From Stappia sp. WLB 29 (lineage in GTDB: Bacteria; Pseudomonadota; Alphaproteobacteria; Rhizobiales; Stappiaceae): a stretch of DNA of 64,000 nt. The first letter of the stretch is position 1. Each line of letters starts with the position of its first letter. The position numbers and the translations under genes were made by a program. Of the stretch, positions 12,782 to 18,105 are shown in pieces. The stretch covers positions 310,001-374,000 of the forward strand of contig NZ_JALBGD010000004.1 of NCBI RefSeq assembly GCF_023507705.1, read 5' to 3'. The notes beneath the pieces are model-generated. The model saw only the letters and a list, made by a program, of their open reading frames with translations, was not told the DNA's origin and did no database searches.

Positions 12782-13387
12782 TTAGCTGGCCGGAGCCGCG
12801 CGACGCGCGAGCTCGGTAAGGTTGATCTCGACGGTGACGGCTCCGATCGGCTTCGCGGTATCGTCCGCGATCGTCAGGTTGAGCTGGGCGCGCCAGATCC
12901 GGCGGTCGGCGTCCCATTCCGGCTCGTCGATGAATACGGCGTCGGGGCCATTGGGGAAGGTCTTCTGGAACTTCGCCTCGTCGCCCTGCCAATAGTCGCC
13001 GGTGATCGAACTCTGGCCGACATTGAGGCCATGCGCATCCATCACGAAGATTTCGGTATAGAGCCCCAGCGTCTGGGCCTGGACCCGCAGCAGGTAGATC
13101 GACAGGGGCGCTGACAGAGTGGCCGAAATCAGCGGCTTGTCGTCGCTCTTGCGCTCGGCGACCCATTGCTGGTCCAGCGCGTCGATCTCCGCCTGGCTGA
13201 GATTGCCGCGCAATTCGTTCTGCGCGTTGATCGACAGCGGCACGATCGGATTGGCAAGCCATTCCCGGGTCTGGGCGATGAAGGCATCGTCGACGAGCGC
13301 CTTGATGTCGGGTGCCGGCGGCTCGGCCGCCGCTTGTCCGCTCAAGGCGAGGGACGACAACACGCATATTCCCGCAAGACGTCGCAT
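12782..13387 (-). CDS. secreted PDC/Cache-like sensor protein
   Basis: A 201-residue exported protein. [22 protein letters not shown] is a clear Sec signal peptide, with no later membrane segment. The mature part resembles a stand-alone PDC/Cache ligand-binding domain: an N-terminal long helix region ([19 protein letters not shown]) and central [13 protein letters not shown] and [11 protein letters not shown], typical of periplasmic Cache sensors. ATG at 13387 is set by AGGAG eight bases upstream. It precedes the chemoreceptor gene directly, so it may act as a soluble ligand-binding partner for that receptor. The ligand is unknown. Confidence 0.75.
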
Positions 13388-13667
13388 TTTGAAGGCTCCT
13401 GTCCACAATAGGATCAGGTGAGGCTTCCCCTTCGCGGGTTAAGGGAACCTTTAGGTGGAACATTATTATTTTTGTATAATTGAAACAATAGTTTGTTGAG
13501 TTGCTGCCGAAGAAATGTGCAATTTGCAAGTTGCAATGATTCGTAAGATGTGACGCTGACACAGTTACCAGTTCGCTCAGGGGCGCGACGCAGCGGTGGG
13601 AAGGAACCTCGTCCTGCCGCTTTGCGCGGGGACGCGAGGACCTGCGATCGGCCTGCCGAAGCGCTTT
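13388..13667. other. AT-rich intergenic control region of the sensor/chemoreceptor operon
   Basis: No gene is visible here. The stretch 13435-13560 is markedly AT-richer than its surroundings and probably holds the minus-strand promoter for the sensor gene. It contains AAAC/GTTT inverted repeats near 13482-13495 and a heptamer repeated three times at 13518-13538. Specific promoter boxes are not clear. Confidence 0.4.
13518..13538. repeat. three tandem copies of a TGCAANN heptamer
   Basis: TGCAATT, TGCAAGT and TGCAATG follow each other with an exact 7-base period. Such phased half-sites can be regulator binding sites, but this could be chance in an AT-rich gap. Confidence 0.5.
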
Positions 13668-13696
13668 CTTGAACTCGCCGGCCGGTCTCGCCATAT
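13668..13696 (+). promoter_or_regulatory. RpoH (sigma-32)-type promoter for hsp20
   Basis: CTTGAA at 13668-13673, a 17-base spacer and CCATAT at 13691-13696 match the alphaproteobacterial heat-shock sigma factor pattern (CTTGAA and CCATAT-like boxes). A start site would fall near 13703, leaving a leader of about 127 bases before hsp20. Confidence 0.65.
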
Positions 13697-13702
13697 ATGA
13701 CG

Positions 13703-13829
13703 AGACGGAACCAGGTGTGTTCCGGCCGGATGCCGTCAGGGTCCGGCGTGTTGGACGTTTCGGTCGCGCCGGTCAGCCGGCGGACGGATCGTTCGGAACT
13801 GGGCCGCTTTGAAATAGGGCTTGAAGCAT
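13703..13829 (+). promoter_or_regulatory. ROSE-like RNA thermometer in the hsp20 leader
   Basis: The leader can fold into three upstream hairpins and a ribosome-site hairpin. GGAAC 13707-13711 pairs with GTTCC 13719-13723. CCGGA 13726-13730 pairs with TCCGG 13742-13746. CGCCGG 13767-13772 pairs with CCGGCG 13777-13782. In the last, GCC-g-CT at 13803-13808 pairs with AGGGC at 13816-13820, with a bulged G, hiding the AGGG ribosome site. A YGCU sequence with an unpaired G facing the ribosome site is the hallmark of ROSE thermometers, which are known from rhizobial small heat-shock genes. Melting on heating would open translation. This is a hand fold. Confidence 0.6.
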
Positions 13830-14258
13830 ATGACGCGCATGTCTGCGTTTTCCTCTCCCCTGCTTCTCGGCTTCGAGGATCTGGAACGGATGCTCGACAG
13901 GGTCAGCAAGGGCTCGAACGACGGCTATCCGCCGTACAATATCGAGCGGCTGCCCAAGACCGAGACGCGCGGCGAGATCATCCGCATCACCCTGGCGGTT
14001 GCCGGCTTCACCCGCGACCAGCTCGACGTCAGCGTCGAGGAGAGCCAGCTCGTGATCCGCGGACGCCAGGAAGACGACAAGACGCGGCAGTTCCTGCATC
14101 GCGGCATCGCGGCCCGGCAGTTTCAAAGAGCCTTCGTTCTGGCGGAAGGGATCGAGATCCTCGGTGCGGAACTGAAGGACGGCCTGCTTTCCATCGATCT
14201 CATCCGCCCGGAACCCGAGCGTATCGTGCGCCGCATCGAGATCGACGCGCGGGACTGA
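13830..14258 (+). CDS. small heat-shock protein Hsp20
   Basis: ATP-independent holdase chaperone of 142 residues that binds unfolding proteins in the cytoplasm. The alpha-crystallin domain spans about 34-135: YNIERLPKTETRGEIIRITLAVAGF, then a beta-strand ELKDGLLSIDLIRPEPE near the end. The C-terminal IxI-like anchor is weak (IEIDARD). ATG at 13830 is chosen because AGGG lies ten bases upstream; ATG at 13839 is an alternative. An RpoH-type promoter and a ROSE-like leader precede it, consistent with heat induction. A DUF1150 gene follows, a usual partner in this bacterial group. Confidence 0.93.
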   Translation: MTRMSAFSSPLLLGFEDLERMLDRVSKGSNDGYPPYNIERLPKTETRGEIIRITLAVAGFTRDQLDVSVEESQLVIRGRQEDDKTRQFLHRGIAARQFQRAFVLAEGIEILGAELKDGLLSIDLIRPEPERIVRRIEIDARD

Positions 14259-14334
14259 CCCCGTATTCGACCTTGGGCGCACGGACCGGAGCGGTGGTGC
14301 GGCGACCTGCCGGCCACGCGAAAGGAGCGATGCC

Positions 14335-14592
14335 ATGACGTGTGACGAACAGACTTTCACCATGAAGCCCGGCGAATTCCAGGCGCTCGGTACCGGGCAG
14401 ATCGCCTATGTGAAGCCGATGACCTCGGACGATCTGACGACGCTGTTTCCGCAGGCGCCGCGCATGCGCCCGGGGTTGAACCTTTGGGTTCTGCTCAACG
14501 CCGACGGAACGCCGATCATGCTGTCCGACAGCCGCGAGACGGCGCTGGCCAATGCGGCCGAGCATCAGCTCCACACCGTGGCGCTGCACTGA
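14335..14592 (+). CDS. DUF1150-family protein
   Basis: Small protein of 85 residues without membrane segments or signal peptide. Its sequence (GQIAYVKPMTSDD near residue 21, then LWVLLNADGTPIMLSDSRETALANA) matches the DUF1150 family, found almost only in Alphaproteobacteria and commonly next to hsp20, as here. No molecular function is established. AAAGGAGCGATGCC precedes the ATG. It lies 76 bases after hsp20 and ends shortly before a strong terminator, so it is likely part of the heat-shock transcript. Confidence 0.85.
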   Translation: MTCDEQTFTMKPGEFQALGTGQIAYVKPMTSDDLTTLFPQAPRMRPGLNLWVLLNADGTPIMLSDSRETALANAAEHQLHTVALH

Positions 14593-14645
14593 CGCGCCGA
14601 ACGGCCCCCGCGTGCCGCGGGCCGGTCTTCCGATCCCATGACGCG

Positions 14646-14712: not shown

Positions 14713-15177
14713 TCAGGCCGCGTTGGAGGCGACCGGCTGCGTCAGGATGGAATAGAGCGCGTCGGCGTCGCTGGTGGCGCGCAGCTTGGCGACCGTTCCC
14801 GGATCGCGCATGCGCCGGGCGATGCGGGCGAGCGCCTTGAGATGATCGGCACCGGCGCCTTCCGGCGCGAGCAGGACGAACACCAGGTCGACCGGCTGGT
14901 CGTCCAGCGCATCGAAATCGATGGGACGCTCCAGACGGGCAAACAGGCCGACAAGCTTGTCCAGACGAACCAGCTTGCCATGCGGAATGGCGATGCCGTT
15001 GCCCACCCCGGTCGAGCCGAGGCGTTCGCGCTGCAACAGCGTGTCGAACACATCCCGTTCGGGCAGGCCGGTGACGGCTGCGGCCTTGGCGGCGAGTTCC
15101 TGGAGCGCTTGCTTCTTGCTGTTCGCTTTCAGGCTCGGAACGATCGCTTTCGATGTGATGAGATCGTTGAGATCCAT
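14713..15177 (-). CDS. ptsN: nitrogen-PTS regulatory protein EIIA-Ntr
   Basis: Phospho-acceptor of the nitrogen-related phosphotransferase system, 154 residues. The phosphorylated histidine is in GVGNGIAIPHGK near residue 66, and the domain fills the whole protein. It receives phosphate from NPr and regulates potassium transport, sensor kinases and stress responses rather than sugar uptake. Start ATG at 15177 gives MDLNDLITSKAIVPSL, the usual N-terminus. It lies 91 bases after hpf and downstream of rpoN, the standard neighbourhood in Proteobacteria. It ends before a terminator. Confidence 0.96.
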   Translation of the reverse strand: MDLNDLITSKAIVPSLKANSKKQALQELAAKAAAVTGLPERDVFDTLLQRERLGSTGVGNGIAIPHGKLVRLDKLVGLFARLERPIDFDALDDQPVDLVFVLLAPEGAGADHLKALARIARRMRDPGTVAKLRATSDADALYSILTQPVASNAA

Positions 15178-15268
15178 AAGGCGACTCTTGGTTCGAGAAA
15201 CGGAAAGGCAACCGGCGCGCCGCCGCATCCCGCTGAGGGAATGCGGCGGGCCGGATTGCATCGATGGT

Positions 15269-15847
15269 CTATCGGGCTGCGTTGTCCGGGTCGATCCACC
15301 CGTAATTGCCGTCGGGGCGGCGGTAGACGACGTTCACCGTCCCGCTGCCGGCATTGCGGAACACCACCACGGGTGATTCCGCGAGATCGAGCTGCATGAC
15401 CGCCATCCCGACGGTCATGGTCTTCACCTTGGCGGTTGTCTCTGCGACCACCAGCGGGGTGAAGTCTGCCGGGACCTCCTCGTCCTCCTCCATGGAAGCA
15501 AGGACATAGGAGGTCGCCTCGAACACCTCGCGCCCGTTGGCGGCGCCATTGGCGTGATGATCCTTGAGCTTGCGCTTGTAGCGGCGCAGCCGCTTCTCGA
15601 TCCGCTCGGCGGCGGCATCGAAGCTCTGGCGCGGATCCGGGCTGTCGCCCGACACCTGCAGGTCGATGCCGGTGTCGAGGTGGAGGAGGCATTCGGAGCG
15701 GAAACCGGATCCTTCGCGCCCGACCGTCACGTGGCCGGTATAGCCGCCGTCGAAATATTTCGAGATGGCTTCAGCGACGCGATCCTCGATATGCGTCCGC
15801 AAAGCATCGCCGACATCGACGTTCTTTCCCGATATCCGCAGTGTCAT
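15269..15847 (-). CDS. hpf: long-form ribosome hibernation-promoting factor
   Basis: Ribosome-associated factor of 192 residues that pairs 70S particles into inactive 100S dimers in stationary phase. The N-terminal S30AE domain (MTLRISGKNVDVGDALRTHI to RRYKRKLKDHH) is followed by a linker and the C-terminal dimerisation domain (VGMAVMQLDLAESPVVVFRNA to IDPD). This makes it the long, HPF-L type normal for Alphaproteobacteria. ATG at 15847 is the family start. It has its own candidate promoter about 270 bases upstream, and ptsN follows. Confidence 0.96.
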   Translation of the reverse strand: MTLRISGKNVDVGDALRTHIEDRVAEAISKYFDGGYTGHVTVGREGSGFRSECLLHLDTGIDLQVSGDSPDPRQSFDAAAERIEKRLRRYKRKLKDHHANGAANGREVFEATSYVLASMEEDEEVPADFTPLVVAETTAKVKTMTVGMAVMQLDLAESPVVVFRNAGSGTVNVVYRRPDGNYGWIDPDNAAR

Positions 15848-16297
15848 GAGAACCTCTTCTTGTTCTGGTCGTACCGACCCATGCCTGAATATGGCGTGAT
15901 TCCCGCCAGTTTCATCATGGGCGACCCCACTGTGACAAACCGGGCTCCGAATTGATATCCGCAACCCGACCTATTGCATCCCGGTTCGGGGTCTTGCCTG
16001 CAGCACGACGCCTTGAAGCGGTTCGTCTGCCGGCCGCCTCTCGCGCCCGGATCGCGTCCAAGACGCCGTCCTTGCGCGCGATACGACCATACGTGCCGTT
16101 TCCGGCACGCATGAGCGCGGGTCTATAAGCGTGCGGCTGCGTTAAGTCAAATGGAGTCCGGCCGGCGGTGCGGCGGCAGCGGTCGGCGCGAAGGCCGACG
16201 GCCTCGCCAAGTGCCTGAAGAAACAAGGGTTTCATTGCCACCCTGCCTTTCCCTGCCGCCCCGGCCCGGCGCCGCGTCTGCGGCGTGCGCGCTGGTT
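15848..16297 (-). other. 450-base gap upstream of hpf, with promoter and leader
   Basis: No gene is supported on either strand. The left part would be the hpf leader (about 268 bases from a start near 16115). It contains a small hairpin CGTGCCG/CGGCACG at about 16091-16108, immediately after the predicted start. The right part (16151-16297) is the untranslated tail of rpoN. Open frames crossing this gap are antisense shadows. Confidence 0.5.
16122..16150 (-). promoter_or_regulatory. sigma-70-type promoter for hpf-ptsN
   Basis: Reading the minus strand, TTGACT (16150-16145), a 17-base spacer and TATAGA (16127-16122) form a near-consensus housekeeping promoter directed at hpf. This allows hpf-ptsN expression independent of the upstream rpoN transcript. 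Confidence 0.65.
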
Positions 16298-17881
16298 TCA
16301 GCCCCGGCTTGCCCTCTTCTCCCGTCGTCTCTGGACGGAAGAGGCGATGCGCAGGGACTCCCGGTATTTTGCAACCGTTCGGCGGGCAATGTCGATCCCC
16401 TCGTCCTTCAACATTTTGACGAGCGTGTCGTCGGAGAGGATGTCGTCCGGGCTTTCCGCATCGATCAGCACCTTGATGCGGTGGCGTACCGCCTCGGCGG
16501 AATGGGCATCGCCCCCGCCGGCAGAGGCGATGGCGGCGGAAAAGAAGTATTTCAGCTCGAAGATGCCGCGCGGCGTCGCCATGTACTTGTTCGAGGTGAC
16601 GCGGCTGACGGTGGACTCGTGCATAGAGATCGCCTCGGCGATGGTCCGCAGGTTCAGCGGCCGCAGGTGCTGCACGCCATGCACCAGGAAGGCGTCCTGC
16701 TGGCGGACGATCTCGCTCGCCACCTTGAGGATCGTGCGGGCCCGCTGGTCGAGGCTCTTGGCCAGCCAGTTGGCGGTCTGCAGGCATTCGGTGAGGAAGG
16801 TCTTCTCCGCCTCGTCGCGCGCCTGGCGGCTGATATGGGCGTAGTAGGTCTGGTTGACCAGCACCTTGGGCAGCGTGTCGGTGTTCAGCTCCACCGACCA
16901 GCCGCCGTCGCGCGCCCGGCGCACGATCACGTCCGGCACCACGGGCTGGATCAGGGTTTCGCCGAAGGAGCTGCCCGGCTTGGGGTCGAGCGCCTTCAAC
17001 TCGGCGATCATCTCCTTGAGGTCCTCGTCGTCGACGCCGCAGGCCTGGCGCAGCGCCGGATAGTCGTGGCGCGCCAGCAGGTCGATATTCTCGATCAGCT
17101 TTTCCATCGCCGGATCGAAGCGGTTCTTCTCGATCAGCTGCAACGCCAGGCATTCGGCGAGCGAGCGGGCGAAGACGCCGGTCGGCTCCAGCGTCTGCAG
17201 CACGGCGAGGATGCTGTCGAGGCGCGCGCGCTCGATGCCCATCCGCTCGGCCGTGTCGTCGAGGTCGAGGCGCAGATAGCCGGCATCATCGAGATTGTCG
17301 ATCAGCACCTGGGCGACGAGACGGTCCACCGGATCGGCGACGGCCAGCACCATCTGGTCGCCGAGATGCTGCTGCAGCGACACGTCGGAGGCGACGAAGG
17401 CCTCCAGATTGTAGTCCTCCGAGGCGCCGCCCGCGCCGGTGCGCGTCGTCAGGCCGGTCTGCCAGGGGTCGCGCTGCTGCGCCTCGCCCGCGCCCGTCTC
17501 CGCCCGGCCGGTGCCGGGATCGTCGGGATAGATGTTGCCGAGATCGGTGTCGAGGCGCTGGGCGATGTCGCGCGAACTGTCGGACAGCTCTGAACTCAGC
17601 CAGACATCGCCGTCGCCCTCGCTGCCGCCCTCGTTGCCGGAAGAGGGGGCCTCGGCCGCTTCCCGCTCGCCCGCTCCCTCGCTCTCGCCGCCGCCGTCGC
17701 CCTCGTTGGAGCCGCCCTCGCCGTCGGCGCGCTCCAGCAGCGGGTTGCGCTCCATTTCCGCCTCGACATAGCTCGTCAGGTCGAGCGACGACATCTGCAG
17801 CAGCTTGATCGCCTGCATCAGCTGCGGCGTCATGATCAGGGTCTGGCCCTGGCGGATCTCGAGCTTCGGCGACAGCGCCAT
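16298..17881 (-). CDS. rpoN: RNA polymerase sigma-54 factor RpoN
   Basis: Alternative sigma factor of 527 residues that directs polymerase to -24/-12 promoters and needs enhancer-binding activators. Region I is the Gln/Leu-rich start (LEIRQGQTLIMTPQLMQAIK). Region II is an acidic, low-complexity stretch (SNEGDGGGESEGAGER and surroundings, about 70-120). The core-binding and helix-turn-helix parts follow, and the diagnostic RpoN box ARRTVAKYRESL lies near residue 500. ATG at 17881 (MALSPKLEIRQ) is the family start; the open frame continues 56 codons upstream without homology. It sits in the conserved lptB-rpoN-hpf-ptsN order, 224 bases after lptB. Confidence 0.97.
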   Translation of the reverse strand: MALSPKLEIRQGQTLIMTPQLMQAIKLLQMSSLDLTSYVEAEMERNPLLERADGEGGSNEGDGGGESEGAGEREAAEAPSSGNEGGSEGDGDVWLSSELSDSSRDIAQRLDTDLGNIYPDDPGTGRAETGAGEAQQRDPWQTGLTTRTGAGGASEDYNLEAFVASDVSLQQHLGDQMVLAVADPVDRLVAQVLIDNLDDAGYLRLDLDDTAERMGIERARLDSILAVLQTLEPTGVFARSLAECLALQLIEKNRFDPAMEKLIENIDLLARHDYPALRQACGVDDEDLKEMIAELKALDPKPGSSFGETLIQPVVPDVIVRRARDGGWSVELNTDTLPKVLVNQTYYAHISRQARDEAEKTFLTECLQTANWLAKSLDQRARTILKVASEIVRQQDAFLVHGVQHLRPLNLRTIAEAISMHESTVSRVTSNKYMATPRGIFELKYFFSAAIASAGGGDAHSAEAVRHRIKVLIDAESPDDILSDDTLVKMLKDEGIDIARRTVAKYRESLRIASSVQRRREKRASRG

Positions 17882-18105
17882 GAAGGCTCCCGGACTGCTG
17901 CGGGGCGTTTCGATGCAAGGGATCTGCGGCCGTTGCAGGCACGCGCCTGCACGGATGCGGCCCGCGGACATGCCCCGTCGCCCGCCGGCTCCCCGGACCT
18001 GCCTCGCCGCCCGCGCGGTGCCTGCTGCGCATGCGGGAACGCGCCGCACCTGCCCCCGGCGCGATTGGTCCGCTTCTTGCTTTGTAGCCTAAGGGCGTTT
18101 TCGCA

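Follow-up and report, generated by a model that had tools for sequence, protein, structure and literature searches.

Which signals control the small heat-shock protein gene hsp20 is the question raised by this locus of Stappia sp. WLB 29. An earlier note on this DNA had proposed that the gene is controlled twice, by an RpoH promoter and by a ROSE-like RNA thermometer in its 5' leader. Our analysis of the whole 64,000-nt stretch (hereafter, the window) and of related genomes supports this proposal by comparison of the promoter, the core motif and the stem over the ribosome-binding site. Based on these comparisons, we consider it very likely that hsp20 is under the double control of an RpoH promoter and a ROSE-type thermometer, with translation expected to respond to temperature. 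The hsp20 product (142 amino acids counted from the conserved ATG) matches Pfam PF00011 (E 1.4e-16), and its matches begin at the residue of the ATG at 13830 in all 14 genus genomes. The features of the locus are as follows.

13668..13696, plus strand: RpoH (sigma-32) type promoter CTTGAA-N17-CCATAT (exact match, conservation)
13703..13829, plus strand: putative hsp20 5' leader with a four-hairpin fold, its start placed about 7 nt past the -10 box
13706..13724, plus strand: hairpin 1 (predicted fold)
13725..13747, plus strand: hairpin 2, CCGGAU-G-CC / GG-GUCCGG with bulged G13732 (fold, conservation, covariation)
13748..13799, plus strand: hairpin 3, extra and variable, between the two conserved hairpins (predicted fold)
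13801..13822, plus strand: final, putative thermometer hairpin, GGGCC-G-CU with AGGGCUU, G13806 bulged (fold, match to covariance model R1, covariation)
13816..13819, plus strand: ribosome-binding site AGGG within the final hairpin, 10 nt before the ATG (sequence)
13830..14258, plus strand: hsp20 (PF00011)
14335..14592, plus strand: DUF1150 gene, 3' of hsp20 (Pfam PF06620, E 5.7e-27)

Judging by the short gap between them, hsp20 and the DUF1150 gene perhaps form one operon; a literature search whose scope left out most subscription journals gave no report on DUF1150 with Hsp20. Beyond these two genes, the minus strand at 14713-18049 carries a PTS EIIA domain gene (PF00359; ptsN-like) together with hpf-like and rpoN-like genes, the latter two judged from their translations alone. 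A second hsp20 (IbpA-like; locus L039, G000:C12:108200-110200) is present in the same genome. It has its own, classical-looking leader with UUGCU over AGGA and an RpoH-like promoter (CTTGAA-N17-CCATCT).

For comparison, hsp20 orthologues were taken from all 14 genus genomes, from all 87 family genomes (genus included) and, at E 1e-35, from 117 of 150 order genomes (none in 33), together with the best 80 named loci and 28 leaders of the second hsp20. These 323 loci, less 41 duplicates, gave 282 unique leaders (14 genus, 73 other family, 58 named, 109 order and 28 paralogue leaders).

The promoter boxes, CTTGAA (13668-13673) and CCATAT (13691-13696), are separated by a 17-nt spacer and show 0 mismatches, which supports the reading as an alphaproteobacterial heat-shock promoter. 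The perfect form (spacer 16-18) occurs once in the 4.75-Mb genome, at this site, and a reversed control pattern has 0 copies. Within the window, six sites carry ≤2 mismatches, compared to 0.83 expected, and 13668-13696 is the sole perfect one. Read as TTCTTGAA-N15-CGCCATAT, the hsp20 promoter also fits the RpoH consensus NNCTTGAA-N(13-18)-CNCCATAT as given in the excerpted text of PMC3669281. All 12 consensus letters are matched in every one of the 14 Stappia leaders; among the 73 other family leaders, 72 match all 12 and one matches 11. Scores were lower outside the family: of the 58 named leaders, 25 had 12, 23 had 11 and 10 had 10; of the 109 order leaders, 64 had 12, 22 had 11, 19 had 10 and 4 had ≤9; and the 28 paralogue leaders had 10 or 11. 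The scan took the best site within 300 nt, so that scores ≤10 may be chance. The earlier note had held that a transcription start downstream of 13800 would speak against the thermometer. As far as the sequence tells, this objection does not apply: a sigma-70 type scan of 13300-14600 detected no other promoter. Transcription of hsp20 would start at about 13703 and would be expected to depend on RpoH.

The putative leader (127 nt, from 13703 to the base before the ATG) has a minimum-energy fold consisting of the four hairpins listed above. This is the structure that had been folded by hand, with three hairpins and a final one that places a bulged G over the ribosome site. The AGGG is paired in the final hairpin, and G13806 is unpaired in the arm opposite (hereafter, the anti-SD arm). 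For this stem, the proposed pairing of GCC-g-CT with AGGGC was right, with two pairs missed (G13801-U13822 and G13802-U13821). The folding energy of the leader is not unusual for its composition (z -1.90; 11 of 200 shuffles as stable), nor is that of the final hairpin alone (z 0.21; 111 of 200), and the case therefore rests on comparison. The ribosome site was at least as hidden in 3 of 14 control genes of the window (14 of its 45 ORFs have a usable site). Leaders are 121-144 nt long in the 14 Stappia, compared to a median of 81 nt (range 70-138) in the 73 other family leaders, only 3 of which reach ≥115 nt; the median is 75 nt in 105 order leaders. Outside the family, folding at 30 °C predicts a dominant final stem in only 67 of the 92 order leaders and 19 of the 34 named ones; with coding bases included, these numbers fall to 47 and 12, respectively.

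Sequence comparison brings out, besides the promoter, two conserved hairpins that covary. The first sign of the final hairpin is a fixed pattern near the ATG, YGCU...AGGR (hereafter, the anchor). It occurs in all 14 Stappia leaders and in all 73 from the rest of the family, in 95 of the 109 order leaders and 34 of the 58 named ones, and in 27 of the 28 paralogue leaders. YGCU with an unpaired G opposite the ribosome site, which the earlier note had called the ROSE hallmark, thus holds throughout the genus and the rest of the family; the WLB 29 leader departs from the stricter U(U/C)GCU in reading CCGCU. The pattern is lacking in 24 of the named, 14 of the order and 1 of the paralogue leaders; these were left out, and the pair counts that follow are conditional on the pattern. 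The pair next to the anchor is C-G in 14 of 14 Stappia (CCGCU vs AGGG), compared to U-A in 70 of 73 other family leaders (UCGCU-type core vs AGGA) and C-G in 3 of 73. Across the 216 anchored orthologous leaders, it is U-A in 150, C-G in 42, U-G in 20, C-A in 3 and G-A in 1. Final-stem pairs outside the anchor were formed in 936 of 1079 cells, compared to a mean of 812 (sd 8, max 839) in 2000 swaps of the 3' arm. The anti-SD arm pairs with the SD over 5.28 positions within leaders versus ≤4.65 when swapped (190 leaders; kinship ignored). Within Stappia, the final stem is nearly invariant, and the 4 consensus pairs (of 24) with two-sided changes all lie outside it. Tree-aware counts lean the same way without reaching significance: for the U-A/C-G exchange, only three independent contrasts are well supported, and they favour it by about 1.7 to 0; the final-stem pairs stand at 0.7 to 0 (p7), 2.9 to 0.3 (p8) and 3.6 to 0.8 (p9). 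Covariation of the final stem in relatives, on which the earlier note had made its reading depend, is present across the order in the pair counts, the arm swaps and the R1 alignment described below. Many of the named leaders without the pattern (Methylobacterium and kin; e.g., L129, L133, L175, L246) carry AAGUGCC...GGGCUU before the hsp20 orthologue. By eye, this looks like another variant, in which the bulged G is retained and the first or closing pair differs.

Hairpin 2 occurs in every Stappia leader (14) and in 71 of the 73 from the rest of the family. The named set has it in 42 of 58 leaders, the order in 81 of 108 (leaving aside an additional leader that lacks a usable promoter) and the paralogues in 27 of 28. 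The search demanded three outer pairs, and the free evidence is restricted to the pairs beyond them (k4 and k5), which are formed in 197 and 178 of 208 orthologous leaders, respectively, as C-G, G-C, A-U or U-A. The two arms pair over 5.78 positions within leaders versus ≤4.41 when swapped (190 leaders; hairpin chosen by pairing, kinship ignored). Tree-aware counts are about 6.8 to 0 for k5 (median p 0.016) and 4.9 to 0 for k4 (median p 0.06).

A covariance model (R1) was built from 34 leaders, picked from 56, without any of the 14 Stappia; the end of the window's leader is at most 0.68 similar to any training leader. In a search of the window and 26 loci, the top two matches in the window were 13779-13830 (21.6 bits, final stem) and 13725-13759 (20.8 bits, hairpin 2), and the next scored 10.2 bits. 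The two hairpins are matched separately because of the hairpin inserted between them. On whole Stappia genomes, the hsp20 leader was the best match in 10 of 14 and was listed at E≤1 in 11 of 14; it was unlisted in G000 (the genome of the window), G003 and G008, with 150 first-pass candidates scored. Among 150 order genomes, R1 gave 49 matches in 47 genomes at E≤0.01, of which 45 lie directly before an hsp20 orthologue, at least 18 of these 45 genomes having fed R1; under the stricter filters of this search, G000 and G002 had no match. The four matches away from an hsp20 orthologue (G156:C26, G134:C57, G110:C165 and G164:C27) could be further thermometers or chance. An alignment (A3) of 62 R1 matches (61 orthologous, 1 paralogue) from 100 non-training loci (92 orthologous, 8 paralogue) has 96.1% of its cells paired and 11 of 17 pairs changed on both sides, with 0 of 500 shuffles as high on any of five measures; it is fitted to R1, and its matches partly resemble the training leaders, with a similarity of ≥90% in 25 of the 62 (one of them identical) and of <80% in 14. 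The same signal is weaker in the unfitted training alignment (A1): 86.0% of its cells are paired, two-sided changes occur in 9 of 17 pairs, and as high a value is reached by 0 of 500 shuffles for four of the measures and by 10 of 500 for the remaining one.

Rfam, which the earlier note had proposed as a check, does not call the element: RF00435 scores the leader at 16.9 bits against a cut-off of 45. Neither the window nor any of 36 distinct loci (12 paralogues) has a match to an Rfam ROSE model at or above the cut-off of that model, loose thresholds bring up weak matches alone in the leader, and RF00435 gave no match at E≤10 among the 150 of 389 candidates scored on the whole genome. RF02523 (ROSE_3) had no match in the window, and its best in the genome (17.7 bits, cut-off 43) lies at another place. 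The weak RF00435 alignment sets hairpin 2 on the first hairpin of the model and the remainder on hairpin 3; the low score is probably due to the extra hairpin that parts the two conserved ones. Across the order, RF00435 exceeds its cut-off in 9 of 150 genomes. Of its 15 loci, 14 carry an hsp20, and 0 of 15 matches fall at the leader of the hsp20 orthologue. On the minus strand, antisense to the leader, 13671-13753 matched the c-di-GMP-II-GAG model at 22.6 bits (cut-off 40); this involves self-complementary hairpins, is probably chance, and was rejected.

Of the features that define ROSE elements, those of sequence and predicted fold apply to this leader with one change; a rise of translation with temperature that needs no protein factor would be expected of it. 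According to the part of PMC3669281 drawn on here, the motif opposite the ribosome site is U(U/C)GCU. The Stappia leader has CCGCU, in which the change of the first U to C is compensated by a change of AGGA to AGGG. ROSE elements are described as having two to four hairpins (in the passage used from PMC4166951), and four are predicted here. The element precedes a small heat-shock gene as part of a 5' leader that is probably transcribed, its 3'-most hairpin is predicted to pair imperfectly with the ribosome site around an unpaired G, and compensatory changes maintain the final stem in the sequence comparison. The hsp20 leader is a ROSE-type element below the Rfam cut-off, and its reading as a ROSE thermometer is an ordinary one that comparison of related leaders makes well supported.

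How such an element would work can be outlined as follows. Under heat stress, RNA polymerase carrying RpoH would start at about 13703, and the stable 5' hairpins would hold the leader in register. At growth temperature, the weak final hairpin with its unpaired G would hide the AGGG and keep the ribosome off. Warming would open this hairpin and allow Hsp20 to be made, and cooling would close it again.

Folding at 30 and 42 °C, another check that had been proposed, agrees with the hidden site and gives little melting. Based on nearest-neighbour energies (240 of 243 anchored leaders folded, leader only), the mean predicted chance of a free ribosome site rises from 0.04 at 30 °C to 0.08 at 42 °C in Stappia, from 0.07 to 0.11 in the other family leaders, from 0.17 to 0.21 in the order, from 0.21 to 0.26 in the named and from 0.12 to 0.18 in the paralogue leaders. 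The response is equally small in the leaders at RF00435 loci (0.22 to 0.24; 14 leaders, 10 over the cut-off, with one further over-cut-off locus left out that has no hsp20 match). The 14 control genes of the window stand at 0.35 at both temperatures. The model energies thus show a hidden site but fail to show a thermometer even for leaders called by Rfam, and thermosensing appears to lie outside what the program can settle. Two-state melting estimates of the final hairpin (medians 55-73 °C) were far above growth temperature in every group and were not used. One prediction speaks against a closed site in this strain: with coding bases past the start codon, WLB 29 is the sole Stappia of the 14 whose ribosome site is predicted to be open.

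Three other explanations have lower probability. The signal could be the Hsp20 protein itself, binding the leader and repressing its own translation as is reported for E. coli IbpA, with temperature acting solely by way of unfolded proteins that titrate Hsp20. IbpA of gamma-proteobacteria is reported to repress itself through the mRNA 5' leader (in the portion of PMC10474464 consulted), but in the ROSE elements studied elsewhere it is the bulged-G stem over the ribosome site that senses temperature (from the text excerpted from PMC3669281), and Hsp20 self-repression can coexist with a ROSE thermometer; we regard this explanation as quite unlikely. Less probable still is a two-state switch, in which hairpin 2 and the anti-SD arm swap partners and the open state is an alternative fold, not a melted one. 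When the ATG and 15 further coding bases are added to the WLB 29 leader, a fold is indeed predicted in which the anti-SD arm takes the 3' arm of hairpin 2 as its partner and leaves the ribosome site open in a loop (chance of an open site 0.93 at 30 °C). Pairing between the SD and the 5' arm of hairpin 2 is also slightly longer within leaders (3.30) than in any of 200 swaps (≤3.29). However, this excess is 0.09 of a pair with kinship ignored, the switch fold is predicted for WLB 29 only (1 of 14 Stappia, the 13 others being closed), and the 3' arm of hairpin 2 gains nothing comparable with the SD (4.96 vs 4.94 swapped) or, in the pairing that makes up the open fold, with the anti-SD arm (4.07 vs 4.07). 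As improbable as the switch is an ordinary GC-rich leader with chance hairpins and regulation of hsp20 by the promoter alone, to which the unremarkable folding energies and the equally hidden sites of three control genes would be congenial, and which is disfavoured by the conservation, the covariation and the match to a model trained without Stappia.

The probable ROSE-type thermometer, with its RpoH promoter, can then be set beside known systems. Among its closest counterparts is the rhizobial hspA type of RF00435, with which it shares the position in the leader of a small heat-shock gene, the bulged G that faces the ribosome site in the final hairpin and the conserved first hairpin, in which six pairs are followed by an unpaired base and two more pairs (structure line of RF00435). 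It differs in its core (CCGCU/AGGG instead of UUGCU or UCGCU with AGGA) and in the extra hairpin between the conserved two. ROSE_3 resembles these leaders in having sub-threshold matches at hsp20-orthologue leaders in G137, G206, G214 and G135 (4 of 24 matches), as well as in G029 and in the Stappia genomes G001 and G007. In contrast, 0 matches of RF02523 reach the cut-off of 43 in 150 genomes, hsp20 is found at only 7 of the 33 RF02523 loci taken, and 13 of 14 control genomes also have matches at E≤10. The short ROSE-like thermometer of Pseudomonas ibpA likewise combines a sigma-32 consensus promoter with a ROSE hairpin before one small heat-shock gene and has YGCU over the ribosome site; unlike it, Stappia has C for the first U of the ibpA U(U/C)GCU and four hairpins in 127 nt instead of two in about 62 nt (Pseudomonas data from the part of PMC3669281 drawn on). 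ROSE-G is a ROSE relative that also has altered letters opposite the ribosome site, but its motif is CUGCU, two bulged Gs oppose each other, and it precedes ABC-transporter genes, whereas Stappia has CCGCU with one bulged G before hsp20 (ROSE-G as given in the excerpt of PMC12857270).

The combination of the two controls has precedents. For Pseudomonas putida ibpA, both sigma-32 transcription and ROSE control of translation have been demonstrated, according to the same excerpt of PMC3669281. According to the sections of PMC3989490 used here, operons for small heat-shock proteins are preceded by ROSE elements in Mesorhizobium loti, Sinorhizobium meliloti and E. coli, and these genes depend on RpoH in S. 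meliloti. Agrobacterium hspL is under RpoH control (stated in the portion seen of PMC2885654). Because double control is published for other ROSE genes (in the cited parts of PMC3669281 and PMC3989490), its presence in Stappia is less surprising than the earlier note had held. The element went unreported among the matches listed in a search for Stappia heat shock or thermometers, whose scope again left out most subscription journals. Double control and the element class were thus already known; what is added here is the Stappia member, the changed core pair and the Rfam blind spot. The Stappia hsp20 leader settles no long-standing question.

These results extend the ROSE class to Stappia, with core letters that have changed together. 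They also point to a blind spot of public RNA models, given that RF00435 finds 0 of these leaders in 150 genomes and the 34-leader model finds 45. We lean slightly toward the view that the leaders of hsp20 orthologues constitute a widespread ROSE subclass in the order that Rfam misses, having two bulged-G hairpins, a U-A, C-G or U-G pair in the core, space for an additional hairpin between the two and, in nearly all cases, an RpoH-like promoter. The exchange of U-A and C-G in related species provides a natural series for how a thermometer keeps its set point under sequence drift.
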